Shown here one piece after another: positions 32,573 through 59,629 of a stretch of DNA of 64,000 nt. The first letter of the stretch is position 1. Every line of letters begins with the position of its first letter. This DNA is from Halichondria panicea (Eukaryota; Porifera; Demospongiae; Suberitida; Halichondriidae), in contig NC_087389.1 in the NCBI RefSeq assembly GCF_963675165.1, positions 4,758,620-4,822,619 of the forward strand, read 5' to 3'. The position numbers and the translations under genes were made by a program. A model generated the notes under the pieces. The model was not told the origin of the DNA and ran no database searches. It worked only from the letters and a program-made list of their open reading frames with translations.

Positions 32573-34454
32573 TCACGTACTATTTATAGTGCAGTATTTC
32601 CCCCTAACAGCTGATGACAAGTCCCCATAATCAATGTCATGGAGAGCGTCGGCAATAATGCTCCAAGTTATTCCTAGACTCTTGTAGTTTTTGGCAATGA
32701 ACAGGAACAGAGCAATCTTCTGACCTTCAGTATCTGGATGTGTACAGAGAGAAAATAAATAACATAACTAATTAACCCTTTCCCAGTTTTAATTAAAACA
32801 AGAAAATACAGAATAAATAACAATTTTCTTTAAAAATTCATATATCATGAACCATACATTGAAATGACTTGTAACTATTTCCTGCAGGTAGCGCAGGTAT
32901 CTTGACACCATCTTCGTTACCTAGCAACTGACCACCCCCACTAATTAGCAATTGTTTACAAACATTCACAATTATGTACATAAATAATAATTTATTGTAT
33001 GACGGCACAAAGACACTAAATAAGTGTTCTCAATGTTCTCACGGTGACATGGTTCAATCAGGATCTGCATAAAGTTCTCAGTGAGGTCGTACCAGCAGAC
33101 GCTTTCTTCACCTACACACAGGTTTACAAGTTCAATGGTGGCTCATGATGTCCACTGCTGTACTAACTAGCCTAAATACAATTATATACTGTACTACATA
33201 ATGCTTACCAGATCCAAGAAGTTTATCCATCGCAAGAGCCTTAGCTTGAGGTAGCTTCTTATCTAGCTATGATCCCAGTCACTATCCTCTCACTCAATAA
33301 GGCCATAAGCATCGATATTCTCACTGTCTAGCTGCTCTATAGAACCTCACTGAGGTTGTACTACGAAGATCTTGAAACGGTCACTTTTCTTTCGACATTA
33401 TTGTACGAAGCGTACCTCGAGGCAGCATATACACAGCGAATTTTTGAAAATTACCACTAAAGTAGCCGTCATATGACGGCTTCAACGGGGAAAGGGTTAA
33501 TATATAGAAAGAGGCAAGAACTAAACAAAGTAACAATTCCCCAATGCATCATTTTAATTTACCACATCGATTGTCTTGCTGGATGACCTCCAGTCGGTAT
33601 TGAGGAATGCCCAAACTGACCCCAAAGAGTATTGGTTTTGTGAGTGTCTTGAGCTCCTTGTATAAGATAATGAGAGTGAACTCTGGTGGTACTGAATGGG
33701 AGGAGAGGGACATTAGTACTATACAGTCACTATAGTAAATTAAGGTGCACATCTCGTAAGAGTCAGCAACTAACACAACTGATCCTGTATGTATACGTAT
33801 ATGTGTGATATAGCTCAATTATGATAATTATTATAAGTGTCTCTGCAAAAAAATATTAGTGACAGCTAGACTGACAGGTGATCTACCTGAACTGGCTGGA
33901 GTTACTTGTAGAGATGAAGTTGGGAGGGGTGGTGCAATTACATCATCTTTACTAGAGTCAGCAACTAACACAACTGAGCCTGTATGTATACGTGTGTGTG
34001 ATCTGAGGGTCAATACAAGCGAGTTAACTCACTTGTTTCTTCCAGCTGATCAGTTATTAGAGTAGACTGTACAGTAGGCTCATCATTGAGTGATTCTGTA
34101 GCTTGAAGGGAGTGCTGGTAATTATGTACTGGAGTAAAGATCTCAAAATTGGCAGGAGCAGTGCTAAGAGTGTCCAGTGCATTGTCTGTTTGGTCGAGCT
34201 ACAATAATTATAAGATCAGTAAAAAACATACATAAAATGTACAACATTCACTCACGTCAAATAGTTCAGCCACCTCAATCAATTTTGACAGTAGTGCATC
34301 CCAAAGTTTGTAGAAAACACAGGCCATCTATAGATTGAAATGATAGTGTCTATGCCAATAATTATGAAAAATGACTTACCTCTTCATTTTGCGGAGGTAA
34401 ATATGTTTTCTCCCACTTATTCAGCAATGCGGTTTTTCGTGATTCCTCAAAGGC
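32573..34454 (-). other. C-terminal exon cassette of NLR copy C (linker plus Death domain)
   Basis: Exon 2 (25 codons, AFEESRKTALLNKWEK) starts 51 bp after the LRR exon. Exon 3 (24 codons) reads MACVFYKLWDALLSKLIEVA, a predicted helix. Exon 4 (55 codons) is acidic and Ser/Thr-rich. Exon 5 (31 codons) carries VADSSKDDVIAPPLP. Exon 6 (43 codons) reads KELKTLTKPILFGVSLGIPQ, and exon 7 ends with ITWSIIADALHDIDYGDLS and a stop. The Trp and the LG-IP/LEVI pattern fit Death-domain helices 2-5. Intron 6 is long (829 bp) because of a piggyBac-like insertion, and intron 5 (195 bp) contains a second, degenerate copy of exon 5 (about 33740-33830). Confidence 0.85.
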
Positions 34455-37037
34455 CTGTATTTAAAAAATAATAACTATAACTGTGAAATAGAGATAGTGA
34501 ATAACCTTCAAGTGCTCGTTGCACATGAGTATCAACTCCTCGCTCACAGGATTACCATGGAGATTAACGCCAGCTTGGAAATCATTGAAGTCCTCAAGTC
34601 CGGGAAATAGCTCGGGTAGACACTCAGTGAGAGCCACCACTCCCTCGTCATCAATGGAGTTGTTAAAGAGATCCAACAAATACAAACTCTTACACATCAA
34701 ATTAGCGGACTTGAGATGGTGGATAAGCATTATGATGTCAGCAGAGGCGAGAGAACAGTTAGAGCAGATAAGATATTCCAGTGATCGAAATACCTGAAGA
34801 AACTTTACCAGTAAGAGAGTACCAGTGAATCCACTGAAATTGGAGCGAATCAAGTCCAACCGTTTTAAACAGTAAAACCTATTTGGGTGAAGATTCAACA
34901 GCATGGACTCTGAGTGAAATGAATTAGTGAGATGGGTAGCTGATAAATCAATTTGTTTCAATCGTAACGGAATGTTTTCAACAACTGAACATAATCCAGG
35001 TAACCCAAGGTTATTATCAGAGAGGTATAAGTATTCCAATCGAGCACACTGAGAAGAAATGGAATGTAAGAGGGAGGTCAATAGCGCTCCATTGACATCA
35101 GCATCGACAGTGAGGGTGTTGGATAACCCAAGAGTATTCAGGTTATTAAGAGCACCAGACTGCACAGCTGTCTCTAATAACTGTATGCCAGACACTCCAA
35201 GAGGATTGTGAGATAAATGCAGTTGTGTGAGGCTAGTACAAGATGTGTGCATGAATGACGACATAATGTTAGTAAAGCTGTTTTTAGACAAAGAGAGATC
35301 ATCTAAAGCTCTAAAGGCAGCTGAGGCTCTCTTGAATAGATCTGAAATACCAATGTCAGACAATTTAGTCTGTTGAAGGGATAATTCTTTAACTTGCAGT
35401 TTACCATTAGCATTTGAAAGTATGTCGGTTAGTTCCTTCAACAGCTTATCATCGATTGCACAATAGTATATGCTGATAACCATATCATCACATTTTGCAG
35501 CATGACGAAGAACATAAAACTTAGCTACACAGTCGAAGGGAGTTTTGAAGCCACTGTACAATAAAGAATCTTTAGACATTATACAAACTTTTAATGCATA
35601 GTCAGGGTCCGAAGCTTCAAAGGCCGCATGACATAAAATCAAACAATCATCCAAAATATCACGCTCCATAGCCATCAGAAAGTGATTCATCAAACCATCT
35701 TCCAAACTGATCACCTTATCACTACGACTGACATTGTGTTTACTAGCAAGACCAAACATAAATCTCCACACCATGTCAAACCGGCTACTGTCAAAGTGAG
35801 CCCTAACAACCTTCAGTTTCTCCTCATTGGGTAGAGTAGCAATATGGAGGGCAGCCAAGAACTCCTGGATGGTCAGGTGAGCAAAATGAAAAGATAGGCC
35901 ATGACCAACAGATAGAAGTGATCGTGCAGACTGCAACAGACCAAAGCACTGCAATTTGTCACCAACTTCGGGTAAGCGAGAGGACAATTCGTCTTCTGAG
36001 AAAACCAGCTGATCTAATAATAAGCATTCGTAGGCAAACTCACAGATCAACCAGAACGTGTCTTGTAGATTATTCGGAATCTTGTCAAACCTGTTGAGAC
36101 CAATTGGACAATCAGGGAATTTCTTTTTGACATTGCGAAGGATAATATTAAGAACAATTTGAGTGTACAGCTCAGTTAGCGTACGAGGAAGCTCTTGGTC
36201 TGAAGTGTGCCACAAGTTACAAACAATGGCGCAATTTAGGGGCACAGAACACACACTCTGAATGACTGGGTTGTTCTCAAGCTGCTTGATAAGAGAAGAA
36301 GCTTTCTTTGGGAATTGCTCAAACTCTGATTCTATGTACTGCTTGACATTCTCTTCATTAAAACCAACTACCTCAACCAAACGGTCCACAGAAGGAAGGT
36401 CGTGAAGAGGAGCTGAAGCAGAAGGGCGTGAGGTGAGGATAATAGAAGCAAAAGGAAGAAGACGTCCAAACAAAAGATTGTATAGAAAAGACTTTTTTGA
36501 ACGATTTGCTTCACTGAGCTCGTCCCATCCATCAGCTATGATGAGCACTCCCTTTCCTCTTGTCCTCTTTAGCTGTCGAGCAACAGACTCACAGATGGTC
36601 TCATCGGGGTGATGAAGGGCCAGGAGGTCAGGAAAAGAAGAAGCTGAGCTGACTAACTGATCCCTGAGAGGAAGCAACAAAACACAGTCAAATTGTGTCA
36701 GGATATTGCCCTCTGCCCATCCTTCAGCAAGCATGGCACACAGTGTGGTTTTACCAATCCCAGCATTGCCTTCAACGATAACTTTCTTGACTGCTTTCTT
36801 TCCTTCTTCAACTTTGAAGAGGCCACCGTGAAGAATTTTAGTACGTGTAACCTTCTTATCATCAGGTGCACCATGTTGTGGCAAGCCAGCTCTAAATCCT
36901 TCTTTCTTTTCAGCCTCCACTAACTGCAAGTTTATCAGCTTGTCTCCAGAAACTGGTGGCCATTGCTCCTCCGTATTTAATTGCCTCTCTCTGTAAACTT
37001 CCTTTACACTTTCAACAAACTCTTCTTGTGTTTCCAT
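32573..37037 (-). CDS. NLR copy C: NACHT-LRR-DEATH receptor, intact, seven exons
   Basis: Exons (minus): 37037-34506, 34454-34380, 34327-34256, 34198-34033, 33979-33887, 33691-33563, 32733-32573. All introns are GT-AG; intron phases are 0,0,0,1,1,1; the sum is 3228 nt, giving 1075 aa. Exon 1 holds Walker A GNAGIGKT (about residues 90-97), Walker B LIIADGWDEL (164-174), LTSRP (201-205), FAHLTIQEFLAALH (about 410-425) and RI-type LRRs (about 560-830; LSLSKNSFTNIMSSF, LHLSHNPLGVSGIQLL). Exons 2-5 form a charged/Ser-Thr linker, and exons 6-7 a Death-like domain (about 982-1072). The start is the conserved METQEEF, with no N-terminal effector exon seen upstream. Likely a cytosolic pattern-recognition ATPase that oligomerises; ligand unknown. 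Nearly identical upstream to copy B. Confidence 0.88.
32776..33496. mobile_element. piggyBac-like element in intron 6 of NLR copy C
   Basis: TTAA sits at both sides (32772-32775 and 33497-33500). The ends are CCCTTTCCCAG and the inverse CGGGGAAAGGG. A perfect 16-bp palindrome (GCCGTCATATGACGGC) lies at 33465-33480 near the right end, a common subterminal feature. Only short open stretches remain on the minus strand (for example WYDLTENFMQILIEPC near 33080). The other NLR copies have no such insert in this intron. Confidence 0.85.
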
Positions 37038-39488
37038 GTTAACTATAAAATAGACTGTTTAAATTACAGATTCATTTGACAAATTCCCCGTTAGAGTAAA
37101 CAACCCATTATCGAACACGTGCTATTTTCGAACGCGTGTTCTCGAGGACAGCGGCTCAGAGCACTAAGCTGATAGTACCTAGGTATAGACAAGGTAAAGC
37201 TCTATTCAAGTCCAAACTCACAGCCAACAAAAAGCTTCTTCGGCGGAGTGACAGGGCCAAATACTCAACTATTGGAACAGATTTAGTTCGAACATAGCCA
37301 CGATTCTTCGAACTCTCTCTCTCGTATCAACAGAAGGCTCTAAGCAGCTAGCTACAATGCATGACCGTAATCTATAACTAGTAAACTATGTACAGCTCTG
37401 GTTTCAAGGTCTGACTGCAAGCCGTTAGACAATGGTGTCCTCTTGAAATAGTGCAGTATTGCCATCAAAATCCGAACGATTATTGCCTTTTTCTTTATAA
37501 TCTCCAGTGGAGCCATGACGTAAGAATGCAACTTTAGGAAAAAAATGGAGATTATGGTATTAATCGTTTGGATTTTGATGGCAATACTGGACTTTTTCAA
37601 GAGGCCACCATTATCTAACGGTTTGCAGTCAGACCTGAATCAATTTGTAGTTTCTCAGGCTCTCGCGCTTGGAAAATGGTCAGCTTTCCAATATCACAGA
37701 CCTCAAAGTAGAGGCACTATAAAAGGATGGTTGATAAGTTTAAATTATGCACTTCCGCTTTTTGAGGAAGTTGGGGTATGTTTTCAGATAGTCATTATCA
37801 TTAATATTTATCGTTTGCCTCGATTGCTTGCTATTGTAGGAATAATAGCCTGAGAAAGTACAAATTGACTTTTTGTATGGCCTTAGCCTCTTAGACTAGT
37901 TTCTCTCACTTGGAATGCCATTGCATCAGAAGAGTGTGTAGCAAAACTTGTTCACCGAGTGTTGCTACTCTACTTAGTAGTTAGCTCTGCACTAGAACGC
38001 TAGCTATTGGTAGCTGCAAGAGTGAGAAGAGAGCTCCAAGGCTCTGCTGATGCAGCCATTAATTTTTAGACTTGAACTTTTGGCATCGATCGTTTTTAAC
38101 ACAATCATGTCGATTTTATTTCCTACTCCTTGAGTTTCGCTGTGATTCTGGATTCTGCTGCATACAGCAAATTAATTAATGTGTCATCATGAAATAGTGT
38201 ATACTAATAGCTATAGTAGCTTTATGTTATGTAACTTTGACACCCCCACCGAGGCATCAGCACTCACGGTTTGAGTGAATGTTGTGTGTAGCCAGGTTGA
38301 TTATACCATTATACAGAGCCGGCGGAACCGCTCCGGTTGGTCAGACCAAAACTAAACCACTTTTCCCACGTTCGCTCATTTATTTGGTAAGGATCGTTAA
38401 CATTAAAAATGAAAAATCATTCGGTTTGGTAATAATCGTTACTGACAAAGGTGCTGGTAATATATACTATAATAGCAGTACATGTACTGCTTAATTATCT
38501 ATTGTCAGATCTAACTGCAAGCCAGAAGAAAACGTCTCTCTACAAATTGCAATTGAGTTCCCTTCAGTGTCCTCACATAATATACATTTGTGATATCTCA
38601 ATTAAAATGTCAATTTTCAAATATTACTCAAAATGAACCAGAATGAACCAGAATGCGCCAGCGAGCACCATTCAAAAACTTTTTTTCCGGGGGGAGAATC
38701 CCCGAACCCCCCTTTATGGGTCCGGCCTGACCACTTCATATTTGCTTCCTCTGGCTCTGCCATAGATAGAGTATAGAGAGGGATTGGAAACGAAAGTGAT
38801 TCACGTGATGTTTTGCAATCAGGTCTACAAGTCTGTGATTACTGAATCACATGTCCCCTGATGGTACTACCGTAGGTACAGTGGAACCTCTTATAACAGA
38901 CTCTCTAAATAGCGGAACCCTCTGTTATAGCGGACAGCATGTCTTGTATCAACTGGTTTTACTATCTAATAGTGTACTTGAAACCCAGAATAGCGGACAC
39001 CTCTAAACTCCGGACAACGGACAACAGCCTTGTATACAATCCCTACTCTATCTATGCTTATACCTGCGAGACCGATAAGACTAGCAAGATATTAAATATT
39101 CAGAGATACAATATTAAACCTAGCAGAGAGTAGACAATTAGGACCTATAATTACACCATAGGATCTATACTAACCAATAATCTACTATATCGAAGTGGCT
39201 AAATTTGTACTATTATCACTTTATACACAGACAGACTACTTACAAGATTCACAGGTTCAGCTGAGTCCTCAATGCAAAGTCCTTGTAGCTATATAGGGCT
39301 TGTATATTCTTAGCTTGTGTAAGGGCTCAGTATTATGTAAGGGGAGCAACCTCTTAGATGTGGTCTCCTGCATGGCCCAATGCAACGTGACCAAACAGGA
39401 AACTCTTTCATGCATGCAGCTAATTAAAATTCACCATGAATCGAAGTAAGTAGGTGGTATACGTAGATAAAAAACAAACACGCTGTTA
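37038..39488. repeat. Segmental duplication, partner of about 7996-11972
   Basis: From the NLR start codon to about 39488 the sequence is nearly identical to the region upstream of copy B, minus the 1.5-kb transposon of that copy. It includes the long hairpin at 37407-37636, the MITE block at about 37880-38270, and the pogo-like end CAGTGGAACCTCTTATAAC at about 38879. No gene is supported. Confidence 0.8.
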
Positions 39489-39640: not shown

Positions 39641-42600
39641 CTAGATATAGTCAGTGCAGTATTTTCCCCTAACAACTGATGACAAGTCCCCATAATCAAT
39701 GTCATGGAGAGCGTCGGCAATAATGCTCCAAGTTATTCCTAGACTCTTGTAGTTCTTGGCAATGAACTGGAACAGGGCAATCTTCTGACCTTCAGTATCT
39801 GCATGTGTATTGATTAAATAATGTGAACTCTATAAAGACTAAGACTTCAATATTACGCACAAACCCATTAAATAATAGTTAGACACTGTTTTGGAGGTTT
39901 CTATGGGATTTAGAATCCAAAGAGGTACTGATTTTAGTATCCCAAGCGTATAGCGAGGGTGCTATACAAGTGGCTGAGAGCTTCTAATTAAATTAATTAA
40001 TCACATGGACACCTCTAAAACAGTGTCTAACTCGTTTAGATCCTAGTGTGCATGTGCATGTGCAAACCTATATAATGCCTCAGAATTGACTACAGTACAA
40101 CAAGCTTACTTTGCTTGACAACAGAATACTTTAAGTAAGGTGTAGGTCGGTATATAGTATACTTTTCTCATGTACTTCCCCAACTAGTGCCTAGTTACCA
40201 TTTCGATTGTCTTGCTGGATGACCTCCAGTCGGTGTTGGGGAATTATCCTCAAACTGACCCCAAACTGTATTGGTTTTGTGAGTGTTTTGAGCTCCTTGT
40301 CCAGAACATTGAGAGTCAACTCTGGAGGGACTGAATGGGAAAGAGGGGATAGATTATAGTACTACAGCATTGGCAATGTTACTAAGAAAGTGCAATACGC
40401 TTATAGTACACAACTTTGCAATGCGCTTAATTCAGAGTAAACATTATACAGGTGCTCTACCTAAACCGGTTTGAGTTGTTCGTGGAGATGAAGGTTGGAG
40501 GGGTGGCGTAACTTTCTCATCACTATTAGAGTCAGAAACTGATACAACAAAGTCTGCATGTGTGTGTTTGTCATGTGCATGAGGGTCGATCCGTGCAAGA
40601 CAGGTGTGAGGGATTCTGATAGCTAGCTCCATTACAATAACTTGATAGTAGCTCCAGTATAATGATTGGTAGTAGTTAACTCACCTGTTTCCTCTTGTTC
40701 CATTATTTGAGTAGACCGTACAGTAGGTGATTCTGTAATTTGTAGGGACTCCTGGTAACAAACAGTACCAAGAGTGTCCAGTGCATCGTCTGTTCGGTCG
40801 AGCTACAAGATCAGATAATCAAAAATGCTCACACAAAATGTGCTGCACTCACGTCAAATAGTTTAGCCACCTCAATCATCTTTGACAGTAGCGTAACCCA
40901 AATTTTGTAGAAAACGTGAGCCATCTATATAGAAAACGATAGTATATCTACCCCATGCATAATGAGAGACTTACCTCATCGTTTTGCGGAGGTAGACACG
41001 TTCTCTCCCACTCATTCAGAATTGCGATTTTACGGGATTCCTCGAAGGCCTGCAATAATTCTAAGTAATAAAGATGTATGCATGGTGAGATAACAATACC
41101 TCCAAGTGTTTGTTGCACATGTGTATCAACTCTTCGCTCACAGGATTACCATAGACATCAACACCAGCCTGGTAAACGATGCCAATAACCTTCAGTCTAG
41201 GAAACAGCTCTGGTAAACACTCAGTGAGAGCTATCACTCCCTCATTATCAATGGAGTTGTTGCTGAGATACAACCAATTTAAACTCTTACATATTACATT
41301 GGCAGACTTGAGATGGTGGATAAGCATTATGATGTCAGCAGAGGTGAGAGAACAGTCAGAGCAGTTAAGTTTTTCTAGTGATTGAAATGCTCGAAAAATG
41401 TTTGCCAGTAAAAGAGTTCCAGCAGCTCCACTGAAATTAGAGCCAATCAAGTTCATCTTTGTTAAACTATTTGGTGGATTGATATTCAGCATCTCACAAT
41501 TGACTGTATTGAGACTCCGAGTGAAGTAAAGTGGTGAAATTGGTAATTCTTAATCCAATCTCATTCAATCGTAACGGAATGTTCTCCTTAATCGAAAATA
41601 ATCCAGGTAAACCTAAATTGTTATCATACAGAAATAAGGTTAACACACGACAACAGTGAGAGGCAATGGACTGTAAGAGGGTTGTTAGTAGAGCTCCATT
41701 GACATCAGCGTCTTCAGTGAGGGTGTTAGAGAGCCCCAAGAGCTCCAGGTTGATAAAAGCACCAGACTGTACAGCTGTCTCTAATAACTGTATGCCAGAC
41801 ACTCCAAGAGGGTTGTGAGACAAATGCAGTTGCGTGAGGCTAGTGCAAGATGTGTGGATGAATGAAGACATGACGTCAGTGAAGTTGTTTTGATATAACG
41901 AGAGGTGATCTAAATCTGTAAAGGCAGCTGAGGCTATCTTGAATAAATCAGCAACACTTTTATCAGACAACTTGGTCTGCTGGAGGGATAAGTATCGCAC
42001 TTGCAGTTTACCGTTTGCATTGGAAAGTATGTCAGTTAATTCCTTCAACAACCTATCATTGATACCACAATTACCTATTCTGATGACAATGTTATTACAT
42101 CTTTCAACATAACGAAGAATATAGAAACGAGCCATACAATCAAATGGAGAATAGTAATCACTGTTTAATAGATCTTTTCCAAACATAATGCTAACTCTTA
42201 CTGCAAAGCTAGGGTCTAACGTTTCAAAAGACATACGGCACAAAGCAAACTTGTTAAACTTTTTAGCCACTAGAAATTGATCCATCAAAACATCTTCCAA
42301 ACTGATCACCTTATCACTACGACTGACATTGTGTTTACTAGCAAGACCAAACATAAATCTCCACACCATGTCAAACCGGCTACTGTCAGCATGAGCCTCA
42401 ACAACCTTCAGTTTCTCTTCATTGGGTAGAGTAGCAAGATGGAGGGCAGCCAAGAACTCCTGGATGGTAAGGTGAGCAAAGTGAAAAGAAAGGCCATGAC
42501 CAACAGGTAGAAGTGATCGAGCAGACTGCAACAGACCAAAGCACAGTAACTTGTCACCAACGTTGGGTAATCGAAAGGACAATTCAGCTTCCAAAAAAAC

Positions 42601-43638
42601 GAACTGGTCTAATAGTAAGCATTGGTAGGCAAACTCACAAATCAACCAAAATGTGTCTTGTAGATCATTCGGAATCTCGTCAAAGCTATTGAGGCTAATC
42701 GGACAATCAGGGAACTTCTTTTTGACATTACGAAGGATAATATTAAGCACAATTTGAGTGTACAGCTCAGTTAGCGTACGAGAAAGCTCTTGGTCTAAGG
42801 TGTGCCACAAGTTACAAACAATGGCACAATTGAGGGGCACAGAACACACACTCAGAATGACTGGGTTGTTCTCAAGCTGCTGGATAAGAGAAGAAGCTTT
42901 CTCTGGGAATTGCTGAAACTCTGACACTATGTATTGCTTGACATTTTCTTCATTGAAGCCGACTACCTCAACCAAACGGTCCACAGAAGGAATGTTGTGA
43001 AGAGGAGCTGAAGCAGAAGGTCGTGAGGTGAGGAGAACAGAAGCTGACGGAAGAAGACGACCAAACAAAAGATTGTACAGAAAAGACGTTTTTGAACGAT
43101 TTACTTCACTGAGCTCGTCCCAGCCATCAGCTATGATCAGCACCCCTTTTCCTCTTGTCCTCTTTAGTTGCCGAGTAACAGACTCACAGATGATCTCATC
43201 GGGGTGATGAAGGGCCAGGAGGTCAGGAAGAGAAGAAGCTGAGCTGACTAACTGATCTCTTAGTGGAAGCAACAGGAGACAGTCGAATTGTGTCAGGATT
43301 TTGCCCTCTGCCCACCCTTCAGCAAGCATGGTACACAGTGTGGTTTTACCAATCCCAGTATTACCTTCAACAATGAGCTTTCTGACTGGCTTCTTGCTTT
43401 CTTCGACTCTGAACAGGCTGCCATGGAGAATTGGAAGGCGTTTTACCTTATCATCAGATGCACCATGTTGTGGTAAACCAGCTCTAAATCCTTCTTCTTT
43501 TTCAACCTCTACTAACTGCAAGTTGATCAGCTTGTGTCCCCTAACTGGTGGCCATTGTTCCTCAGTGTTTAATTGCCTCTCTCTGTAAGCTTCCTTTATA
43601 CCTTCAACAAGCTCACTCAACGCTTCTGAGGCTTCCAT
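39641..43638 (-). pseudogene. NLR copy D: NACHT-LRR-DEATH gene with one LRR frameshift
   Basis: Exons: 43638-41100, 41049-40975, 40924-40853, 40802-40685, 40553-40461, 40330-40199, 39798-39641. Splice sites and phases match copy C. Walker A is GNTGIGKT, Walker B LIIADGWDEL, then FAHLTIQEFLAALH. In the LRR part the frame ends after HSESQYSQL (41494) and resumes at MLNINPPNSL, owing to a two-base deletion relative to copy F. Exon 6 has one extra codon (LRIIPQHR where copy C has LGIPQYR). The protein ends ...RGKYCTDYI. Because everything else is intact, the deletion is either very recent, a polymorphism or an assembly error; if corrected it would be a full receptor gene. The start MEASEALSELVEGIKEAY is aligned with METQEEF of copy C. 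Confidence 0.85.
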
Positions 43639-43639: not shown

Positions 43640-44852
43640 CCAACTGATTACTATAATTGAAGAAGGATCCAGCAACAAAAAGTTTGTTTATTTACGTCTC
43701 TGGTATGATTTCTTGTTTTCAATCTTGTCACTGAGATCAATGGTGCGATTTTATAGCTTAGTTGATTCACTTTGTTTACGAAAATAACCTGTCAGATCAA
43801 CGGTATGTTTAGCTTATGAATAACTTGTGAGACTATACTTAATTAAACTAGAAAACAGAGAACAGAAACATATCCTACGATAACTGAATTATTTATTTTG
43901 ATATGTACGGTGGCCCATAGAGTTCACATGCAAGAACAATATAATCGACATTTGCTAAGTAAAGATTTGATCTTCACTAATAGAGATTACGATTAACCTT
44001 CTAGTAGAGAATTCACCTTCGCTTTTAGAGAGTTCATTTTGCAAGTAAAAGCTCACCTTCTAGCTAGAGACATTTACCTAGGTACGTAGAGGGGGTGCGA
44101 CCTTACAATTGACCATTGCTACACACCTATAATTGGCTATTATTAGAGAACCATAGCCTATTATTAGAAACGAGCTGAGGCTCAGGGAAGGTCTGGTGAC
44201 TCTGCATTATGGGTGAGAGAGAATTATCAGAGAACCATAGCCAGTCTGACACTAGTCTGACTAGGCTACGGTTGAACCTGCAACGTATACATGCATGTGT
44301 ATACTTGTAGCTATAGGCACAGATCACACAAACTAGCATCGAGTGACATGTCTGTAAAATAACGCTAGGTCGCCAACTAGGCCTGATATTGGTTGTACCT
44401 GTTATTTATGAGCAGTTTTTGTGAAGGAAGAAGGCGCGTCACTCTCATAAAAGAACAGGCCCAGGCTCTCAAGCTTCTGCTATCAGTGGCTTGATTGACT
44501 ACACAATTGATACGCCATTGCTGGGAAGTTTCAGATGCCGGCTCGGAGCAGATCTTTTGTATGATATTTGGACCATTAAAATCTACAGTGGAACCTTGAT
44601 TATCCGGACACCTTGGTTCCAGAGGTAATTAACGGTCACACCCAGTAAATTCCAACCACGCCCAAACACAATCAATACCAGGCCTAATTTTCTTCCTTCT
44701 GTGAAAAATCCTTCTGTCCTGGGCATGGGAACGAGGCTACACACAAACAAGCAGCTGCAAGGATTACTATAGCTGCATACTACAGCTATATACTAACAAA
44801 GGTCAATCGTACTCTCCACTAGCAAAGGACAATTGTACTCGATCTTAATTGT
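43640..44852. other. Intergenic: repeat fragments upstream of NLR copy D
   Basis: From 43906 (TACGGTGGCCCATAG) there is the left end of another 6-bp-TSD-family element, with subterminal units such as AGAGAATTCACCTTC and AGAGAGTTCATTTTGC. A right end was not found. At about 44590 a pogo/Tigger-like end, CAGTGGAACCTTGATTATCC, occurs. From 44493 the sequence matches 54285 onward. No gene is supported. Confidence 0.55.
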
Positions 44853-46030
44853 ATCAAAAAGGCATTCGATACTGTCCCCCATGTCAATCTTCTGAAACAT
44901 CTACAGTCACTTAATTTTAACAAATATTTACTAAACTGGGTGCATAGCTACTTACTGGAGAGGAAACAGTTTGTGGGTATTGATGGCAGTAACTCAGACA
45001 GCTTACATGTTCTCTCAGGTGTGCCCCAAGGTTCGGTTTTGGGTCCACTATTGTTCATTACGTACATAAACCAAGTCACAGATGTTATTTCTCAAGACAG
45101 TAAGCTAAATATGTTTGCTGATGACATGGCCTTATACAGAGTTATCACATCTACTAATGACTACGTGAATCTTCAAAAGGACATTTCTAAAGTCTCAAAT
45201 TTTTTGAACACTAAATTATTAGAATTTAATCTTGGCAAGTGTAAGTTTATGTCCGTTTCTAAGAAAACATCGCGCTCATTGAAGGCTCCAACTCTACTTC
45301 TAAATGGTTATGTACTGCAGCAGGTTTCTAACTACAAGTATTTAGGAATTACCATATCGGCTGACTTGAGCTGGCACACTCACATCAATACGATTTGTAA
45401 TAAAACAAGGAAGTTGATAGGTCTCCTACATCGCAGGTTCTCTGAGAATTCTTCTCCAACAACACTGTTAAAGTTGTATACATCGTTCGTGAGACCACAT
45501 CTGGAATACGCATCCTCTGTATGGAACCCATTTCACAAGTGTGAAATAAACAATTTAGAAAAAGTCCAGAGATTTGCTATGAGAGTCTGTCTGAAGAAAT
45601 GGAATTTGAAAAGTGAAGAATTACTCACCTTGACCAGGCTTCCTTCTCTGCAGCTGAGGCGCCTTGCTGCGGTGCTTTGCCACCTTTTCAAAATACTACA
45701 CAATCTAACTGACTTCCCAAACAACCCAGCAACCAAGAGAAATATGACGTACAGTAGTAGAACTGTTAACTGTTTTACTCTGGTCCCCTACCAATGTAGA
45801 ACATCCTTTTACAAATTCTCATTTTTTCCGCATGCAATCACAATATGGAATAGGCTGGTTAGCCACAAGGACTTTACTTTAGTAGACTGTACTAGTATAA
45901 GTTCATTTAAGTCTCATCTGTATTCACATCTAGTTGACATGTTGTAACTATTAAAGCGTATGTTATAGGACTCACTTCACCCTAGCTTTGTAGCTATTTG
46001 TGTATCCTTGCAATTAATTGCTAAATCTTT

Positions 46031-47181: not shown

Positions 47182-48452
47182 CTAGTGCATGCAGTATTTC
47201 CCCCTAACAGCTGATGACAAATCACCATAATCAATGTCATGGAGAGCTTCAGCAATAATGCTCCAACTTATTCCTAGACTCTTGTAGTTCTTGGCAATGA
47301 ACTGGAACAGGGCAATCTTCTGACCTTCAGTATCTGGCATGGGGAATCGTTATTAAAAAGGAATTCGATACACAAGAGACGCAGTCTGAACACATCAGTA
47401 TTAGTCTGAACACAGTTAGTCCACAATGCATATTTTACCGAATCGATAGTCTTGCTCAATGACCTCCAGTCTGTGTTGAGGAATGCCTAAACTGACCCCA
47501 AACTTTATTGGTTTTGTGAGGGTCTTGAGCTCCTTGTCCAGAACACTGAGAGTCAACTCTGAATGGGAGGAGAGGGGAGATCAGTGCTACAGTCACAAGA
47601 ATGCATTTTAGGAAAGTCCACAACTTTACGATGTACAATGCGTAATGCAAAAGTGTTAGAGTAAAAACAAATTTGACAGGTGTTTTATACCTGAAATGAT
47701 TTGAGTTGCTCGTGGAGATGATGTTGGGAGGGGTGGTGTAACTCTTTCATCTTGACTAGAGTCAGCAACTGATACAACTGAGTCTGTATGTGTGTGTCAT
47801 GTGAGGGTTCGTACAAGCCAGGTGCATGTGAGGGGATTCGGAAAGCAAACACCATTACATTTAGTTTGCAATTGTACATATGCCAACACTCAGATAATAA
47901 AGTTAATCTCTTTTTTCTCACATGTTTCCTCTTGTTCTGTTATTTGGGTAGACAGTACACTAGAACAGGTAGGCTCATCACTAGGTGATTCTGTAGCGTG
48001 AGGGGAGTTTTGGTTATAGTCTGGAAAGAAGATCTCATAATTGGAATCATCGCTAAGAGTGTCCAATTCATCGTCTGTTTGGTCGAGCTACAATAATAGA
48101 TCGGATTACAATAAAAAATGCTAACATAAAAATTAATGGGCTACATGCATATACACTCACGTCAAATACTTCAGCCACCTCAATCAATTTTGACAGTAGC
48201 GTATCCCAAGGTTTGTAGAAAACACGGGCCATCTATAGATGTATCGAGATATAATAATTGCATATTAATTTTGTAATACGTGTCTAGGTTACAGCCCTGA
48301 TGTTGTTACCTAGCAACAAAAATTTGCTCCAACACATGCCCGTAATTATGACTTACCTCTTCATTTTGCGGTAGGTCTAGTAAACATATTGTGGTAGTAA
48401 ACATATTTTCACAGTTATTCAGCATTGCAGTTTTTCGTGATTCCTCAAAGGC
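47182..48452 (-). other. C-terminal exon cassette of NLR copy E (linker plus Death domain)
   Basis: Six small exons follow the LRR exon after a 54-bp intron. Exon 5 is exactly 93 nt, as in copies C and D (VADSSQDERVTPPLP). Exon 6 is 120 nt and exon 7 is 152 nt, with ITWSII. The exon 7 stop falls at a different place in each copy (MH, DYI, NST, ARLST endings), so the tail after RGKYC is free to vary while the Death core is fixed. Confidence 0.85.
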
Positions 48453-51062
48453 CTGTATTTAAAATAATAATGAACACTATAATTATAATAGCGAGTGTAT
48501 ATATACCTCCAAGTGTTCGTTACATATGCATATCAACTCCTCGCTCACAGGATTACCACGAAGAACAACACCACCCGATCGCGAGTTGTTCAGCCTAGCA
48601 TTCTGGTTACCAACAAAACGAATAACCTTCAAACTAGGATATAGATTTGGTAGACACTCCGTGAGAGCTATCACTCCTTCGTCATCAATGTAGTTGTTGC
48701 TGAGATCCAACAAATTTAAACTTTTACATTTCACATTAGCGAACTTAAGATGATCGATAAGCATTATGATATCAGCAGAGGTGAGAGAACAGTAAGAGCA
48801 GTTAAGACGCTTCAGTGTTTGAAATACTTGAAGAAACTTTGCCAGTAATAGAGCTCCGGCGGCTCCACAGAGATTGGAGCCAGATAAGTACATACTTTTT
48901 AAATTATATGGATGGAAATACAACATCTCGCAGGTGACTACGTATTGAAGTGAGTGAAATGAAGTTGCATCATGGGTAGCACCTAATTCAATCTCATTTA
49001 ATTGTAACGGAATGTTCTCCACAATTGAATATAATCCAGGTAAACCAAGACTGTTATCTGAGAGGTCTAAGGATACAAGTTGAGTACAGTGAGAGGCAAT
49101 GGACTGTAAGAGGGTGGTCAGTAGAGCTCCATTGACATCAGCATCGTCTGTGAGGGTGTTGGAGAGCCCCAGGGTCTTCAGGTTGATAAGAGCATCAGAC
49201 TGTACAGCTGTCACTAGAGACAGTATGCCAGACACTCTAAGAGGGTTGTCGGATAATTTTAGTCGTGTGAGACTCGTGCAAGACATGTGAATGAATGACG
49301 ACACGATGTTAGTGAAGCTGTTCTTAGACAAGAAGAGATAATCTAAAGCTGTAAAGGCAGCTGAGGCTCTCTTGAAGAGATCAACAACAGCTTTGTCAGA
49401 CAAGTTAGTCCACTCGAGGGATAAGTTTCGAACTTGCAGTTTACCTTCTGCATTCGAAAGTATGTCAGTTAGTTCTGTGAACAACTTATCATCAATCGCA
49501 AGATTTGCTATTCTGATAAACATATTATCACAATTTGCCATATGACGAAGAACATAGAAACAAGTTACATAGTCAAAGGGGCTGTCCAAATAACTGGTTA
49601 ATATGTATTGTCCAACTATATTTTTACAAATTTTAATAGCAAAACCAGGATCTGAAGCTTCGAACGCTACATGACATAAAGCCATATTATTTTGCTTTTT
49701 AACCACCAGAAATTGATCCATCAAACCAACATTTAATATGATCACCTTATCACTACGACTACTGTTGTGCTTACTAGCAAGACCAAACATAAATCTCCAC
49801 ACCATGTCAAACCGGACACTCCTAGTATGGGGGGCCATAACAACCTCCAGTTTCTCCTCATTGGGTAGAGTAGCAAGATGGAGGGCAGCCAAAAACTCCT
49901 GGATAGTCAGGTGAGCAAAGTGAAAAGACAAGCCATGACCAAAAGGTAAAAGTGATCGTGCAGACTGCAATAGACCAAAGCATTGCAACTTGTCACCATC
50001 TTTGGGTAAGCGAGAGGACAATTCAGCTTCTGAAAAAACCAGTTGATCTAATAATAAGCACTCGTAGGCGAACTCACAGATCAACCAAAACGTGTCTTGA
50101 AGATCGTTTGGAATTTCGTCAAAACTATTGAGACCAATTGGACAATCAGGGAGTTTCTTTTTGATATTGCGAAGGATAATGTTGAGAACAATTTGAGTGT
50201 ACAGCTCAGTTAACGTACGAGGAAGGTCTTGGTCTAAAGTATACCACAAGTTACAAACAATGGCGCAGTTAAGGGGCACAGAACACACACTCTGAAATAC
50301 TGGGTTGTTCTCAAGCTGCTCGATAAGAGAAGAAGCTTTCTCTGGGAATTGCTCAAACTCTGATACTATGTACTGCTTAATATTCTCCGTATTAAAACCA
50401 ACTACCTCAATCAAACGATCTACAGAAGGAAGGTTGTGAAGAGGAGCTGAAGCAGAAGGTCGTAAGGTGAGAATAACAGAAGAAAATGGAAGAACATCAC
50501 CAAATAGAAGGTCATATAGAAAAGAGGTTTCCAATTGATTGTCTTCACTAAGCTCGTCCCAGCCATCAGCTATGATGAGGACACCTTCTCCCTCTCTCTC
50601 TTCCAACTCTTCTATAACAGATGCGCGAATCTTCTCACTGGAGTGGAGAAGTTTGAAAAGTTCAGCAAGGCTTGTGGCTGAGGACACTCGATTTTCTCTC
50701 AGTGGAAGCAACAAAACACAGTCGAATTGTGTCAGGATCTTACCCTCTGCCCACCCTTCAGCAAGCATGGTACACAGTGTGGTTTTACCAATTCCAGCAT
50801 TACCTTCAACGATGACCTTCCTTACTGGTTTTTTGTTTTCTTCGACTTTAAATAGGTCACCATGGAGAATTGGAGTGTGTTTTACCGTCTTATTATCAGG
50901 TGCACCATGTTGTGGCAAGCCAGCTCTAAATCCTTTTTTTTTTTCCCCTTGCACTAAATGCAAATTAATGAACCTCTCTCCAGAAACAGGTGGCCACTGC
51001 TGTTGACGGTTCAAGACTCTTTCTCTGTACTTTCGACGAATGCTAGCAAGGAATTTATCCAT
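47182..51062 (-). CDS. NLR copy E: NACHT-LRR-DEATH receptor, intact, seven exons
   Basis: Exons: 51062-48507, 48452-48357, 48232-48161, 48087-47922, 47783-47691, 47558-47439, 47333-47182; total 3255 nt, 1084 aa, phases 0,0,0,1,1,1. The start is MDKFLASIRRKY; the frame extends upstream to an ATG at 51122, which has no family support. Walker A GNAGIGKT, Walker B LIIADGWDEL, sensor ILTLRPSAS (Leu-Arg instead of Ser-Arg), FAHLTIQEFLAALH. The LRR zone includes LFLSKNSFTNIVSSF and LDLSNNYIDDEGVIAL. Exon 2 is seven codons longer than in the other copies (extra TTTICLLD). Exon 6 lacks the VPP start (begins ELTLSVLDKELK) but encodes the Death-domain motif FGVSLGIPQHRLEVIEQD. It ends ...RGKYCMH. Confidence 0.88.
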
Positions 51063-53906: not shown

Positions 53907-53995
53907 TAGTGTAGTATTTCCCCCTAAATACTCAATTTTACGTACGTCGGCAATATAATGCTCCTAATGAAATAGTTCGTAGACTGAAGCCAATA
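53907..53995 (-). pseudogene. Relic of an NLR terminal Death exon
   Basis: The plus-strand sequence GTAGTATTTCCCCCTAA, then GTCGGCAATATAATGCTCC, then TTCGTAGACT aligns with exon 7 of copies C-F (GCAGTATTTCCCCCTAACAG and so on) with internal deletions. The flank ACTATGAACAAA also matches the 3' flank of copy C. It marks an NLR unit that has otherwise been lost between copies E and F. Confidence 0.7.
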
Positions 53996-54284
53996 CTGTA
54001 CATAACGTCACCAGCTGAGGTCTATAGTTAACATTCCATTGGTTTGGCTAGGTACACTGAGAGGTAGCTGCTTTTAGGGGCGACGCCCACTTTTGTGTCA
54101 TTCAGGTTTTTCACCTAGTGATTTAGGTGTAGTAGAAGTGCTAGTCATTGCTATATAGTCACAGCTTATATAATTATATATAGCACATGCAGCTTTTAAA
54201 GACACAATTAACTAGTCTATATACTACTCAGCTAGTAAGAAGTCTATAAGAGTGACTTTAGTTTTCAATCAGTCAATGAGTGAT

Positions 54285-55740
54285 TGACTACACAATTGAT
54301 GCGCCATTGCTGGGAAGTTTCAGATACCGGCTCAGAGCAGAGATCTTTTGTATGATATTTCGACCATTAAAATCTACAGTGGAGCCTTGATTATCCGGAC
54401 ACTTTGGTTCCAGAGGTAATTAATGGTCAAACCCAGCAAATTCCAACCACGCCCAAACACAATCAATACTAGGCCTAATTTTCTTCCTTCTGTGAAAAAT
54501 CCTTCTGCCCTGGGAACGAGGCTACACACAAACAAGCAGCTGCAAGTATTACTAGCTACATACTACAGCTATATACTAACGAAGGTCAATCGTACTCTCC
54601 ACTAGCGAAGGACAATTGTACTCGATCTTAATTGTGAACTCTCTGGCTACAGATCCGTAATTATGTTAATACTAAAGTTGTAGATAGAATTACAACTTGC
54701 AAGTTACATAGAACTTACAATTTCCAAGTAAAAACTGAAAGAGGGCTTTTACTCTTCTGTCTTTGTTTGTTTAGAGGGCTCAGTCAAGAATGGCAAGAAT
54801 GGAGCTCCTCAAACACTTATAATGTGGTCTAGCCCACTTATGCAGACATTCTTTAATTAATTTGTGACCACTGCACAGGAAGTAATCCACTTACATGTAG
54901 AATCAGTATTTGTTTGTTTAAGGGCTGAAAGAGTCACTTTTGAACCTCCCCAGAAGTTGCTAACCCAGAAATAGCAACCTGTGGGGAGGTTCAAAAGTGG
55001 GGACTCATTATACTATACTCTAGTATCCATCAAAGCCTGAATATATGCAACTAGCTAGTCTAATAATTATTCATAAACGAAAGAAATGTAAATGAGCTTG
55101 AGCTTAAGAAAAACATTTTATTCATGCAGGCTTGATGTGGACGCTATAGTATACTGAGTTGTGTGTGTGCTAAACCTCCCAGCAAAAAAGCCCCATTAAA
55201 CCTCCTTCTGTTTACATCTTTAAGTTTAAATTGACACTCAGCTACACCTTGATGAATTAGAGGTCAACTTCAGCCACAGACTACACCTAACTCTCAATGC
55301 AACAGCACCTAGTAGTCTAACTGAGTGTCCAACTTTTGATTTTAGCATAATTATATACCTTGTACACCAAACATTTGAGTTAAACAAGATTAATATACAT
55401 GTGCACACAAGTGTACACATTTGTATGTTTAAAATTGCTCCAAAAATCAAGTATTACACATTTCTATACTCCTGACATCAACGTGTATACTCTGAAATTA
55501 CGAAGTAAAGTGTGCAAATGTGTTCTTTTTTCTTCCTCTACTTTATATAATTATTACCCATCAGCGTTGATCTCGCCCACTCATCTCCCCTATACTTTCT
55601 CCTCTTTCTTCCCCCACTCTCCTCCCCCATACATGCATGCACTTTCTCCTAATTAACTTCTAATTGCTCAATCGTAAGTGCATGGGACCTCATGCAGCTT
55701 TAAATTAGTTCAGAACATGTTTAGCTATTCCATGCATGCA
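54285..55740. repeat. Segmental duplication holding the empty site of the 44.85-kb LINE
   Basis: Aligns with 44493-47060 without the LINE. It includes the pogo-like end CAGTGGAGCCTTGATTATCC (about 54370), the GGGAACGAGGCTA half-MITE (about 54512) and the nested hairpin 54935-54999. No gene is supported. Confidence 0.8.
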
Positions 55741-55925
55741 CGCCACTATAATTATTGTGCATGCAATAATGAGAAATTGGTGTTATTTCAAGGCGGTAGA
55801 AAAAAAACCATGTATATAATCAGGCAATAATTTATATTATAATAGTCATGTTTGACAATGTGTCCTTATAAGAAAAGCTCTGTCAACAAATGAACAACAT
55901 ACAATCTAGTATAATTATATGAATG

Positions 55926-56973
55926 TCACGTACTTAGTCTAGCTATAGTGCAGTATTTTCCCCTAACAGCTGATGACAAGTCCCCATAATCAATGTCATG
56001 GAGAGCGTCGGCAATAATGCTCCAAGTTATTCCTAGACTCTTGTAGTTCTTGGCAATGAACTGAAACAGGGCAATCTTCTGACCTTCAGTATCTGCATGG
56101 CATGGGGAATCGTTATTAAAAAGAAATTCTATACTCTGCAAACACAATCCGAAAAACATTATTAGTCCACAATGCATATTTTACCGTTTCGATGGTCTTG
56201 CTCGATGATCTCCAGTTTGTGTTGAGCAATGTCCAAACTGACCCCAAACCGTATTGGTTTTGTGAGTGTCTTGAGCTCCTTGTCCAGAACACTGAGAGTC
56301 AACTCTGGAGGAACTGAATGGGAGGAGAATAAGCTATACAGTTCAGTATTGGCAATATTCTATAGGAAAGTACACAACTTTACAATGCGCTTAATGCAAA
56401 AATTATTGGCAGGTGCCTATACCTGAACTGGCTTGAGTTGCTCGTGGAGATGAAGGAGGCGTAACTATCCCATTTTTACTAGAGTCAGCAGCTAGCTAAT
56501 ACAACAGAGTGTATGTCATGTGAGCGTTTGTGCATGCAAGCCATGCAGGTGTGAGATTGAGATAGCTAGCTCCATTTAAATACTCAAGGCCCTATATATA
56601 TAATGACCATGAAGTTAAACTCACCTGTTATCACCTCAGTAAGACAGGGAGGGTCATTATTGCGTGATTCTGTAGCAGTTATGTTCTCAGTGCATGCATC
56701 GTCTGTTGGGTGGAGCTAAAAATTAAATGAACAGTCAAAACTTTTCACAGAAAATCTGCTATACATGCACTCACGTCAAATACTTCAGCCACCTTAATCA
56801 TCTCAGACAGCAGTGTATCCCACAGCTTGTAGAAAGCACGAGCCATCTATATAATTATATAGATTGAATTGATAGTGCTATGAATTATCTTATAATACCA
56901 TTTCATTTTGCGGAAGTAAAAGTGATCTCTCCCACTCCTTTAGCACTGCAGTTTTTTCCGATTCCTCAAAGGC
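55926..56973 (-). other. C-terminal exon cassette of NLR copy F (linker plus Death domain)
   Basis: The six exons begin 52 bp after the LRR exon. Exon 2 (75 nt) ends with donor ATG|GTATTA rather than GAG|GTAAGT of the other copies. Exons 3 (72 nt) and 6 (129 nt) are the same length as in copy C. Exon 5 is shortened because the usual acceptor (ACATACAG) has mutated. Exon 7 is the longest of the four (167 nt). The stop codon lies in exon 7, so the Death domain is the true C-terminus. Confidence 0.82.
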
Positions 56974-59629
56974 CTGTGTTTTAAAAAACTGGTAATGAAG
57001 TATACAATTAGTGAGTATATTTTACCTCTAAGTGTTTGTTGCACATGTGTATCAACTCTTCACTCACAGGATTACCACAGAGATCAATGTCACAATGGTT
57101 CCCGGCACCAATCACCTTTAAACTAAGAAACAGCTCAGGTAGACACTCAGTGAGAGCTATCACTCCATCATCATCAATGGAGTTGTCTCTGAGATCCAAT
57201 GCATTTATATTCTTACATATCACATTATTGGACTTAAGATGGTGGATAAGCATTATGATGTCGGAAGAAGTGAGAAAACAGTCAGAGCAATCAAGTCCTT
57301 TCAGTGATTGAAATGCCTGAAGAATCTTTGCCAGCAAGAGAGTTCCGGTAGTTCCACTGAAATTAGAGTGGGTCAAATCAATCATTGTTAAGTAGTTTGG
57401 AGTAATTTTCAACATCTCACAGGTGAGTGTGTATTGAGACTCTGAGTGAAAAGAAGTAGTAAAATGGGTACCCGTTAAATTAATGTGATTCAATCGTAAC
57501 GGAATGTTTTCCGCAACTGAACATAATCCAGGTAATCCAAGATTGTTATTATGTAAAAATAAGGTTAACACACTAGAACAGTGAGAGGCAATGGACTGTA
57601 AGAGGGTGGTCAGTAGAGCTCCATTGACATCAGCGTCTTCAGTGAGGGTGTTAGAGAGCCCCAATAGCTCCAGGTTGATAAGAGCACCAGACTGTACAGC
57701 TGTCTCTAATGACTGTATGCCAGACACTCCAAGAGGATTGTGAGACAAATGCAGTTGCGTGAGGCTAGTGCAAGATGTGTGGATGAATGAAGACATGACG
57801 TCAGTGAAGTTGTTTTGATATAACGAGAGGTAATCTAAATCTGTAAAGGAAGCTGAGGCTCTCTTAAATAGATCAGCAACACCTTTGTCAGACAACTTAG
57901 TCTGCTCGAGGTGTAACTGTTGGACTTGCAGTTTACCATTTGCGTTTGAAAGTATGTCTGCTAGTTCCTTCAATAGCTTATCATCGATTGAACAATCACC
58001 TATTCTGATAACCAACGGCATGTTATCACATTTTTCAACATAACGAAAAACATAAAACTTAGCTACACAGTCAAAGGGAGAGTTGAAGTAACTGTCTAAC
58101 AGATAGTTCCCAAACATTTCACAAATTCTTAGCACAAAGTTTGGAGCTTTGAAAGCCACCGTTTTTAAATCTTTGTGGAATAAATTTCGAACCGAAACAT
58201 TACAAAATCTTATTGAAAGGCCTGGATCTGAAGCTTCAAAAGCCAAATGACATAAAGCCAAAACGTCGTGCTCTTTAGCCTTCAGAAATTGATTCATCAA
58301 ACCATCATCCAAACTGATCACCTTATCACTACGACCATGATTTTTACTAGCAAGACCAAACATAAATCTCCACACCATGTTGAACCGGCCACTGTCAGCA
58401 TGAGCCTTAACAACCTTTAGTTTCTCTTCATTGGGTAGAGTAGCAAGATGGAGGGCAGCCAAAAACTCCTGGATGGTCAGGTGAGCAAAATGAAAAGACA
58501 GGCCGTGACCAACAGGTAGAAGTGATCGTGCAGACTGCAACAGACCAAAGCAATGCAACTTGTCACCAACTTCGGGTAAGCGAGAGGACAATTCAGCTTC
58601 TGAGAAAACCAGCTGATCTAATAATAAGCACTCGTAGGCAAACTCACAAATCAACCAAAATGTGTTTTGTAGATCATTCGGAATCTCGTCAAATATATTT
58701 AGGCCAATCGGACTATTAGGGAATTTTTTCTTTATATTGCGAAGGATGATGTTAAGAACAATTTGAGTGTACAGCTCAGTTAGCGTACGAGGAAGCTCTT
58801 GGTCTAAAGTGTGCCACAAGTTACAAATAATGGCACAATTGAGAGGCACAGAACACACACTCTGAATGAGTGGGTTGTTCTCAAGCTGCTCGATGAGAGA
58901 AGAAGCTTTCTCTGGGAATTGCTCAAACTCTGATTCTATGTACTGCTTGACATTCTCTTCATTAAAACCAACTACCTCAACCAAACGATCCACAGAAGGA
59001 AGGTCATGAAGAATAGCTGAAGCAGAAGGTCGTGAGGTGAGAAGAACAGATGCAAATGGAAGAATGTGACCGAAGAGAAGGTTATACAGAAAAGAGTTTT
59101 TCGAGCGATTATCTTCACTGAGCTCGTCCCAGCCATCAGCTATGATGAGGACACCCTTTCCCTCTCTCTCTTCTAACTCTTCTATAACAGATGTGCGGAC
59201 CTTCTCACTGGCATGGAGAAGTTTGAACAGTTTAGAAAAACTTGTAGCAGAAGATACTTCATTTTCTCTCAGTGGAAGCAACAGAACACAGTCAAAGCAT
59301 TTTAGGATCTTGCCCTCTGCCCACCCTTCAGCAAGCATGGTACACAGTGTGGTTTTACCGATCCCGGCATTACCTTCAACAATGAGCTTCCTCACTGGTT
59401 TCTTGTCTTTTTCGACTCGGAATAGGTCACCATGGAGGATTGGAGTGCGTTTGACGTTATCATCAGGTGCACCATGTTGTGACAAGCCGGCTCTAAATCC
59501 TTCTTTCTTTTCAGCCTCCACTAATTGCAAATTGATGAGCCTGTCTCCTCTAACTGGTGGCCATTGCTCTTGACAATTTAGGAGTCTTTCTTTGTACTTC
59601 TGGCGAATGCTGAAGATAAATTTATCCAT
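55926..59629 (-). CDS. NLR copy F: NACHT-LRR-DEATH receptor, intact, seven exons
   Basis: Exons: 59629-57026, 56973-56899, 56846-56775, 56715-56625, 56491-56423 (acceptor uncertain), 56313-56185, 56092-55926; total 3207 nt, 1068 aa. The start is MDKFIFSIRQKY; upstream in-frame residues to 59707 lack support. Walker A GNAGIGKT, Walker B LIIADGWDEL, LTSRPSAS, FAHLTIQEFLAALH. The zone between NACHT and LRR has an internal duplication (AFEASDPGLSIRFC, then AFKAPNFVLRICEMFG). LRRs include LSLYQNNFTDVMSSF and LDLRDNSIDDDGVIAL. The linker exon 4 is short (91 nt) and the conserved exon 5 acceptor is lost; a CTAG site 24 nt further on keeps the frame. The Death domain has FGVSLDIAQHKLEIIEQD and ITWSIIADALHDIDYGDLS; it ends ...ARLST. 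Confidence 0.85.

Follow-up and report, generated by a model that had tools for sequence, protein, structure and literature searches.

The window analyzed here, 64,000 nucleotides of the sponge Halichondria panicea (C13:4758620-4822619; assembly 131 Mb), carries a tandem array of NACHT-LRR genes, of which copies C, D, E and F run on past the leucine-rich repeats (LRRs) into a tail of six small exons. All four lie on the minus strand, and in each the NACHT-LRR exon is followed by the small exons after 50–54 nt. Exons 2–7 were placed on the window DNA by script (Table 1). Intron 1 is 51, 50, 54 and 52 nt long in copies C, D, E and F, respectively, and is in phase 0 in all four. Every intron begins with GT and ends with AG, and the exon ends share the phases 0,0,0,1,1,1. 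These results agree with a first-pass annotation, made from the letters alone, which had described the six exons, their conserved splice sites and their identical phases. It had also stated that exon lengths sum to a multiple of three in copies C, E and F. This holds for those copies (exons 2–7 total 696, 699 and 603 nt), but the tail of copy D (648 nt) qualifies as well. A single in-frame stop closes exon 7 in each tail.

The LRR exon of copy D is frameshifted, giving two overlapping open reading frames (ORFs), and the frames of A and B are disrupted as well, which leaves C, E and F as the intact copies in the window. The NACHT-LRR part of copy A is split into two ORFs, and its tail lies beyond the window at C13:4755859-4756020. 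Copy B is truncated: its frame changes near 7300, a stop falls within the NACHT match, and no tail was found for it. The broken copies A and B (window 2-8016) show the birth and death of copies in the array. Exon 5 of copy F lacks CAG at the usual acceptor position and uses a CTAG acceptor that preserves the frame. In the copy C intron that separates exons 5 and 6, the start of exon 5 occurs a second time (identical over 24 nt; 33759-33782, minus strand). Reading exons 6 and 7 of copy E as one uninterrupted frame was ruled out by stops within the intron.

The NACHT-LRR core was assigned with Pfam. NACHT scores 88.1, 85.9 and 92.3 bits in copies C, E and F (cut-off 26.7) and is followed by LRR_6 at 37.4, 36.7 and 25.1 bits (cut-off 23.4), while NLRC4_HD2 reaches 26.8–29.7 bits in the same copies, below its cut-off of 33.1. 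Spliced copy F minus exon 5 is identical at every letter to the 1045-residue NCBI model P0001 (H. panicea, annotated as protein NLRC3-like isoform X2). We searched Foldseek with the whole AlphaFold model of P0001, which was built from an alignment of 22 sequences, 3 of them covering the tail, and has a mean predicted local distance difference test score (pLDDT) of 61. The first 50 rows listed were NLRs or complexes holding them, with NLRP3 and NOD2 at the top. Because the AlphaFold tail is too uncertain, this result speaks for the NLR core alone.

Gene boundaries and domain order

P0001 begins with MDKF at Met 59629, has nothing domain-like ahead of NACHT, and splices exon 1 to exons 2–4, 6 and 7. 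P0002 and P0003, NCBI models of other C13 genes, have an order identical to that of copy F. Nine of ten aligned NCBI family members begin at the Met of the NACHT exon, 21–27 residues ahead of a conserved [QK]WPPV motif, and there is therefore no room for an N-terminal domain. No Pfam domain was named ahead of NACHT in the proteins scanned. Within the window there is no CARD match, and the Death profiles tried match the four tails alone; the Death-fold domain N-terminal to NACHT that defines NLRD and NLRC receptors was not found in the window copies. Genome-wide, the 12 places closest to exon 7 are all on C13, each with a same-strand NACHT exon 2.6–4.3 kb upstream. The order NACHT-LRR-linker-Death, as first annotated, is supported by the gene structure, by additional genomic copies and, apart from exon 5, by the NCBI model of copy F.

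Some observations weigh against this order. For 3 of 12 C13 tails of the window's kind (type 1), the nearest NACHT exon is that of the next gene. An upstream coding exon is possible on DNA alone, because an AG of joinable phase precedes the NACHT Met inside an open stretch, at 5–26 nt in copies A–D and 44–89 nt in E and F. The structure is read from DNA and from NCBI models, whose isoform labels suggest transcript support at most. Additionally, the NCBI model P0028 is extended at its N-terminus by 43 residues, which by eye seem to be exon 6 of the upstream neighbour read in another frame, possibly through read-through splicing between neighbouring genes. The close NACHT exons, the acceptor phases and P0028 would all suit a conventional DEATH-NACHT-LRR order misread by us, with exons 2–7 as the N-terminal part of the next downstream NACHT exon. 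We nevertheless consider that arrangement highly improbable, given the stop at the end of exon 7 in all four copies, the splicing of P0001, the start of nine of ten NCBI models at the NACHT exon Met, and the NACHT exon of its own that lies upstream of each of the 12 tails.

A census of the genome covered 102 scored NACHT exons, with same-strand Death exons sought up to 5 kb downstream and CARD or Death up to 6 kb upstream. Twenty-six have a Death exon of type 1 or of a second type (type 2, below) downstream, 24 of them on C13 and one each on C6 and C8; a Death match additionally lies 5.4 kb upstream of one of these 24. Twelve others have an upstream CARD or Death (six CARD on C13 at 4.48-4.55 Mb, four Death on C15, two on C10). 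A CARD match is also seen downstream of a NACHT exon, at 4.0 kb, as is a single PF00531 row of the nine used, at 4.7 kb. The other 64 exons had no flanking Death or CARD in the lists used, which is not evidence of absence. Both orders, Death after NACHT and Death or CARD before NACHT, occur in the H. panicea genome. At a C7 locus, NACHT-LRR (L059, L036; Pfam NACHT) is followed by Death-like exons recognized by eye and by a type-1 exon 7 (L032) 6–9 kb behind NACHT. Protein searches with the two tails, which were restricted by length and word sharing, yielded proteins of H. panicea alone (3/3 and 15/15 rows).

The same census bears on the notion that NACHT-LRR genes and small Death genes alternate along the chromosome and that prediction fuses neighbours. 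In its favour, 20 of the 32 type-1 rows listed lie more than 6 kb from any of the 102 NACHT exons, although one of those 20, on C7, has one ~9 kb upstream. A C15 tail place follows kinase and ankyrin ORFs, and exon 3 opens with ATG in copies C, D, E and F. Such fusion is nonetheless very unlikely in view of the length of intron 1, just 50–54 nt, its phase 0 in every copy, and the NACHT exon upstream of each of the 12 C13 tails.

The CARD-NACHT cluster of conventional order (G000:C13:4481975-4547691) lies ~210 kb from the window. Its six NACHT exons with upstream CARD compare with the one NLRC gene given for H. panicea in excerpts of PMC12909245.

Exons 6 and 7 as a putative divergent Death domain

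The first-pass annotation had called exons 6 and 7 Death-like and ending in a stop. The stop stands in all four copies, and the Death assignment is borne out by profile methods but not by Pfam alone. With a profile of 12 aligned tail relatives, a PDB search placed Fas as the top three sequences (E 0.036, 0.056 and 0.059, ~40 columns). Death domains (Fas, RIPK1, ankyrin-2) made up 8 of the 13 rows to E 10, the other 5 being unrelated, and 4 of the 12 profile members touch PF00531 (best E 0.0039). A genome-wide search with the 99-residue tail domain yielded 74 places with E no higher than 1, each exon being counted separately: close relatives on C13, distant ones on C7, C8, C3, C15, C10, C12 and C6, and single-exon domains elsewhere. 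The distant relatives inspected have an intron at the same place as the window tails. Twelve single-exon relatives were fetched, and 8 of the 10 scanned, located on C14, C3, C8, C15 and C1, passed the PF00531 cut-off.

Comparison by HHalign of the tail profile with 7 Pfam-positive single-exon Death domains of this genome gave 99.2% over 85 of 92 columns; the controls, a reversed alignment and a NACHT helical region, gave 1.0% and 0.1%. With a hidden Markov model of the 7 domains, exon 7 is found in each of the four window copies (E 1e-8 to 1e-6), and exon 6, weakly, in three of them. Reversed and shuffled segments reached a best E of 0.26, compared with 3.8e-8 for L041.

Other results tell against the assignment. 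None of the four spliced tails has a Death match in Pfam at E up to 1 (0/4 reach the PF00531 cut-off), and P0001 has none at E 10. The 7 Death domains compared by HHalign had been picked by resemblance to the tail, and an independent set, the 8 top PF00531 matches, gave 14.6% (reversed 0.5%). Death domains of GTPase proteins gave 51.8% (reversed 1.2%), and type-1 against type-2 tails 1.2%. AlphaFold assigns the tail a pLDDT of 35–63 per block, with five helices and one expected helix absent. An unrelated helical domain would explain the missing Pfam match, the low-confidence model and the weak or absent matches to the independent set and to type 2. Yet it would have to coexist with a profile chain to Pfam-positive Death domains over nearly the whole alignment, with Fas heading the PDB list and with clean controls, and we regard it as very improbable. 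Exons 6 and 7 give no Pfam Death match, and the Death label rests on profile comparison; single-sequence Pfam and PDB searches of these exons likewise obtained no Death domain. That exons 6 and 7 encode a putative divergent Death domain is thus well supported, the support being strong in sequence and the structure unproven.

Between copies, the ratio of nonsynonymous to synonymous substitution (dN/dS, Nei-Gojobori) is 0.26–0.72 for the Death exons (6 copy pairs), 0.36–0.38 for the NACHT-LRR exon (3 copy pairs) and 0.59–0.93 for the linker exons (6 copy pairs). The Death part is kept by selection and the linker drifts.

Proposed signalling from the C-terminus, known receptors and a second tail type

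At a probability of roughly 0.74, we infer that the array encodes NACHT-LRR receptors with a divergent C-terminal Death domain as their signalling module. Ligand sensing by the LRRs would lead to oligomerization of NACHT. Two predicted long helices (the end of the LRR exon and exons 2–3), followed by the fast-evolving, presumably flexible linker of exons 4–5, would tether the Death domain, so that the tethered domains would come together at the oligomer's rim or free side and could there seed Death-Death assembly with a partner. As the annotation had reasoned, a C-terminal Death domain would presumably require a different oligomer geometry or partner. C-terminal output is feasible because the C-terminal CARD of NLRP1 is its active output (PMC7483925, in excerpt).

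Candidate partners would be non-receptor proteins with a related Death subtype. At L035 on C15, a protein-kinase ORF and ankyrin repeats precede related Death exons, perhaps within one gene. In that region (L035 3196-7769), an ORF that looks Death-like by eye, without a match in Pfam, lies ahead of type-1-like Death exons together with a protein kinase and 16–17 ankyrin stretches. Five type-1-like tail places occur at C15:683-766 kb, the upstream region having been read at L035 alone. A closer relative, L037, lies on C8.

The C-terminal Death domain might also be real and yet act as an adaptor, a decoy or a self-inhibitory part, the NACHT-LRR core acting otherwise. No partner of the tail is known, the NCBI isoform of copy F skips exon 5, and the linker is little constrained, all of which would fit such a role. 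However, the Death exons are constrained about as strongly as the NACHT-LRR exon and are retained in many copies, and for the scanned proteins Pfam lists no further signalling module. We therefore consider this role unlikely and retain the Death domain as the probable output of the receptor.

NLRP1, a vertebrate protein of the order NACHT-LRR-FIIND-CARD (with an N-terminal PYD in human), resembles the window genes in its C-terminal death-fold domain (PMC7483925, in excerpt). It differs in having a self-cutting FIIND and a CARD, whereas the window genes end in Death and no N-terminal domain was found in them. FIIND, ZU5 and UPA, which would mark an NLRP1 or CARD8 type of protein, are not listed in the Pfam scans of the window copies and their NCBI relatives. 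PIDD1 is an LRR protein that signals through a C-terminal Death domain; it has ZU5-UPA and no NACHT. The window genes are like it in having a C-terminal Death after LRRs and differ in having NACHT.

Among sponge receptors, NLRC and NLRD carry N-terminal domains, and a C-terminal FIIND-CARD is described for NLRP1 and some fish NLRPs, according to excerpts of PMC11508797. The window genes share the Death-fold and NACHT with NLRD and NLRC, but in reversed order, with Death after the LRRs; an NLRD- or NLRC-like order also occurs in H. panicea at the C15 and C10 places and the CARD cluster noted above. In the excerpts of PMC12909245, sponge NLRs are classed by N-terminal domain and the majority are NLRX, that is, NACHT-LRR with no N-terminal domain identified. 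The window genes fit this definition, except that they have a C-terminal Death that Pfam misses. The NLRX class may thus partly be an artefact of search sensitivity. Bona fide NLRs are present in H. panicea, and a transcriptome study of this species counted twenty NACHT+LRR receptors by Pfam (PMC8242945, in excerpt).

Our searches of open-access PubMed Central listings turned up no account of a C-terminal Death domain behind NACHT-LRR; the phrase "C-terminal death" in the excerpts of PMC5094078 and PMC8195603 refers to other proteins. A C-terminal active death-fold is already known in NLRP1, and what would be new here is a Death-last NLR gene family without a recognizable FIIND release mechanism. 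If the proposed receptor is correct, some members of the sponge NLR class that has expanded most would not be signal-less, its divergent signal part having been overlooked at the opposite end, and counts of NLR repertoires in early animals would change. It would also bear on the proposal, in the excerpts of PMC12909245, that NLRX is the ancestral core to which an N-terminal Death or CARD was added later. Additionally, it would offer a natural experiment on whether an NLR can signal without its effector domain at the hub of the NACHT wheel.

Five NCBI proteins (P0006, P0012, P0025, P0028 and P0037) have the same NACHT-LRR and tail start and a different Death-like end, type 2. Three of the four scanned touch PF00531 at E 0.015–0.12, and P0006 does not. 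Similarly, 4 of the 6 members of the type-2 profile touch PF00531 (best E 0.0023), and the cut-off is passed by P0123, whose tail is 96% like that of P0012; no Death chain is among the 6 PDB rows returned for this profile. At L062, a type-2 tail lies 2.7 kb behind a NACHT exon. Among the 35 type-2 places, a NACHT exon precedes 14 and a Ras-like GTPase core 11; the other 10 have neither upstream and none has both, and the NACHT-linked and GTPase-linked places are interspersed along C13. The GTPase proteins with C-terminal Death (P0121-P0126, C13) share the type-2 tail with these NLRs, a GTPase-like core replacing NACHT-LRR, whereas the window tails are type 1. The last 135 residues of the NLR P0012 and the GTPase protein P0121 are 100% identical, for which fused gene models could be an alternative source. 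All 13 PDB rows to E 10 for the GTPase core are Rab-type GTPases (best E 0.13); a motif suggests a Roc-COR identity for the core, which Pfam does not show. Ras-like GTPase cores occur at 90 places, with arrays on C10, C13 and C1, and form a second expanded receptor-like family unnamed by Pfam.

Because HHalign leaves type 1 and type 2 unjoined, we make no claim of descent between them. Resolution of the NACHT tree is poor. Its single starred branch requires tail type to change at least 2 times, which shuffled labels equal in 153 and 168 of 500 trials, and on the LRR tree shuffled labels do as well in 41 and 33 of 500. The trees being weak, tail exchange rests mainly on the interspersion of type-2 places and the identical tails of P0012 and P0121. 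As a tentative extension, with odds somewhat below even, the NACHT-LRR and GTPase receptor arrays of C13 might draw on shared, exchangeable C-terminal Death cassettes, re-paired with sensors by recombination. Kinase-ankyrin Death proteins would then be their partners, and many "signal-less" sponge NLRs would be Death receptors built backwards. Sensor and switch would sit in the first large exon and output in the last small exons. This extension is weakened by the failure of HHalign to join the two tail types.

Other features of the window

Two reverse-transcriptase ORFs (RVT_1, Pfam) at 44823-45947 (plus strand) and 24962-25480 (minus strand) lie between receptor genes and are probably mobile elements. 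The exons of copies C–F are collected in Table 1.

Table 1. Exons of copies C–F in window coordinates; the first coordinate of each exon 1 is the end of the LRR exon
Copy	Exon	Content	Position	Strand	Length (nt)	Source
C	1	NACHT-LRR, open from Met 37037	34506..37037	-		ORF list, exon script, Pfam
C	2		34380..34454	-	75	exon script
C	3		34256..34327	-	72	exon script
C	4	linker	34033..34198	-	166	exon script
C	5	linker	33887..33979	-	93	exon script
C	6	putative Death, first half	33563..33691	-	129	exon script, Death profiles
C	7	putative Death, second half, stop	32573..32733	-	161	exon script, Death profiles
D	1	NACHT-LRR, frameshift in LRR part	41100..43638	-		ORF list, exon script
D	2		40975..41049	-	75	exon script
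D	3		40853..40924	-	72	exon script
D	4	linker	40685..40802	-	118	exon script
D	5	linker	40461..40553	-	93	exon script
D	6	putative Death, first half	40199..40330	-	132	exon script, Death profiles
D	7	putative Death, second half, stop	39641..39798	-	158	exon script, Death profiles
E	1	NACHT-LRR, open from Met 51062	48507..51062	-		ORF list, exon script, Pfam
E	2	+21 nt, in frame	48357..48452	-	96	exon script
E	3		48161..48232	-	72	exon script
E	4	linker	47922..48087	-	166	exon script
E	5	linker	47691..47783	-	93	exon script
E	6	putative Death, first half	47439..47558	-	120	exon script, Death profiles
E	7	putative Death, second half, stop	47182..47333	-	152	exon script, Death profiles
F	1	NACHT-LRR, Met 59629; P0001 residues 1-868	57026..59629	-		exon script, Pfam, NCBI model
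F	2	in P0001	56899..56973	-	75	exon script, NCBI model
F	3	in P0001	56775..56846	-	72	exon script, NCBI model
F	4	linker, in P0001	56625..56715	-	91	exon script, NCBI model
F	5	linker, CTAG acceptor; not in P0001 (isoform X2)	56423..56491	-	69	exon script, NCBI model
F	6	putative Death, first half, in P0001	56185..56313	-	129	exon script, Death profiles, NCBI model
F	7	putative Death, second half, stop, in P0001	55926..56092	-	167	exon script, Death profiles, NCBI model

Related ORFs at 12714-13748 (344 aa) and 15479-16408 (309 aa) on the minus strand resemble a DEDD-type exonuclease by eye, Pfam being empty for the first at E 0.01. A 388-aa ORF at 22410-23576 (plus strand) has no Pfam match at E 0.01 and appears OB-fold-like by eye. 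Lastly, a short-repeat array at 21086-21625 (plus strand) is open in two frames.

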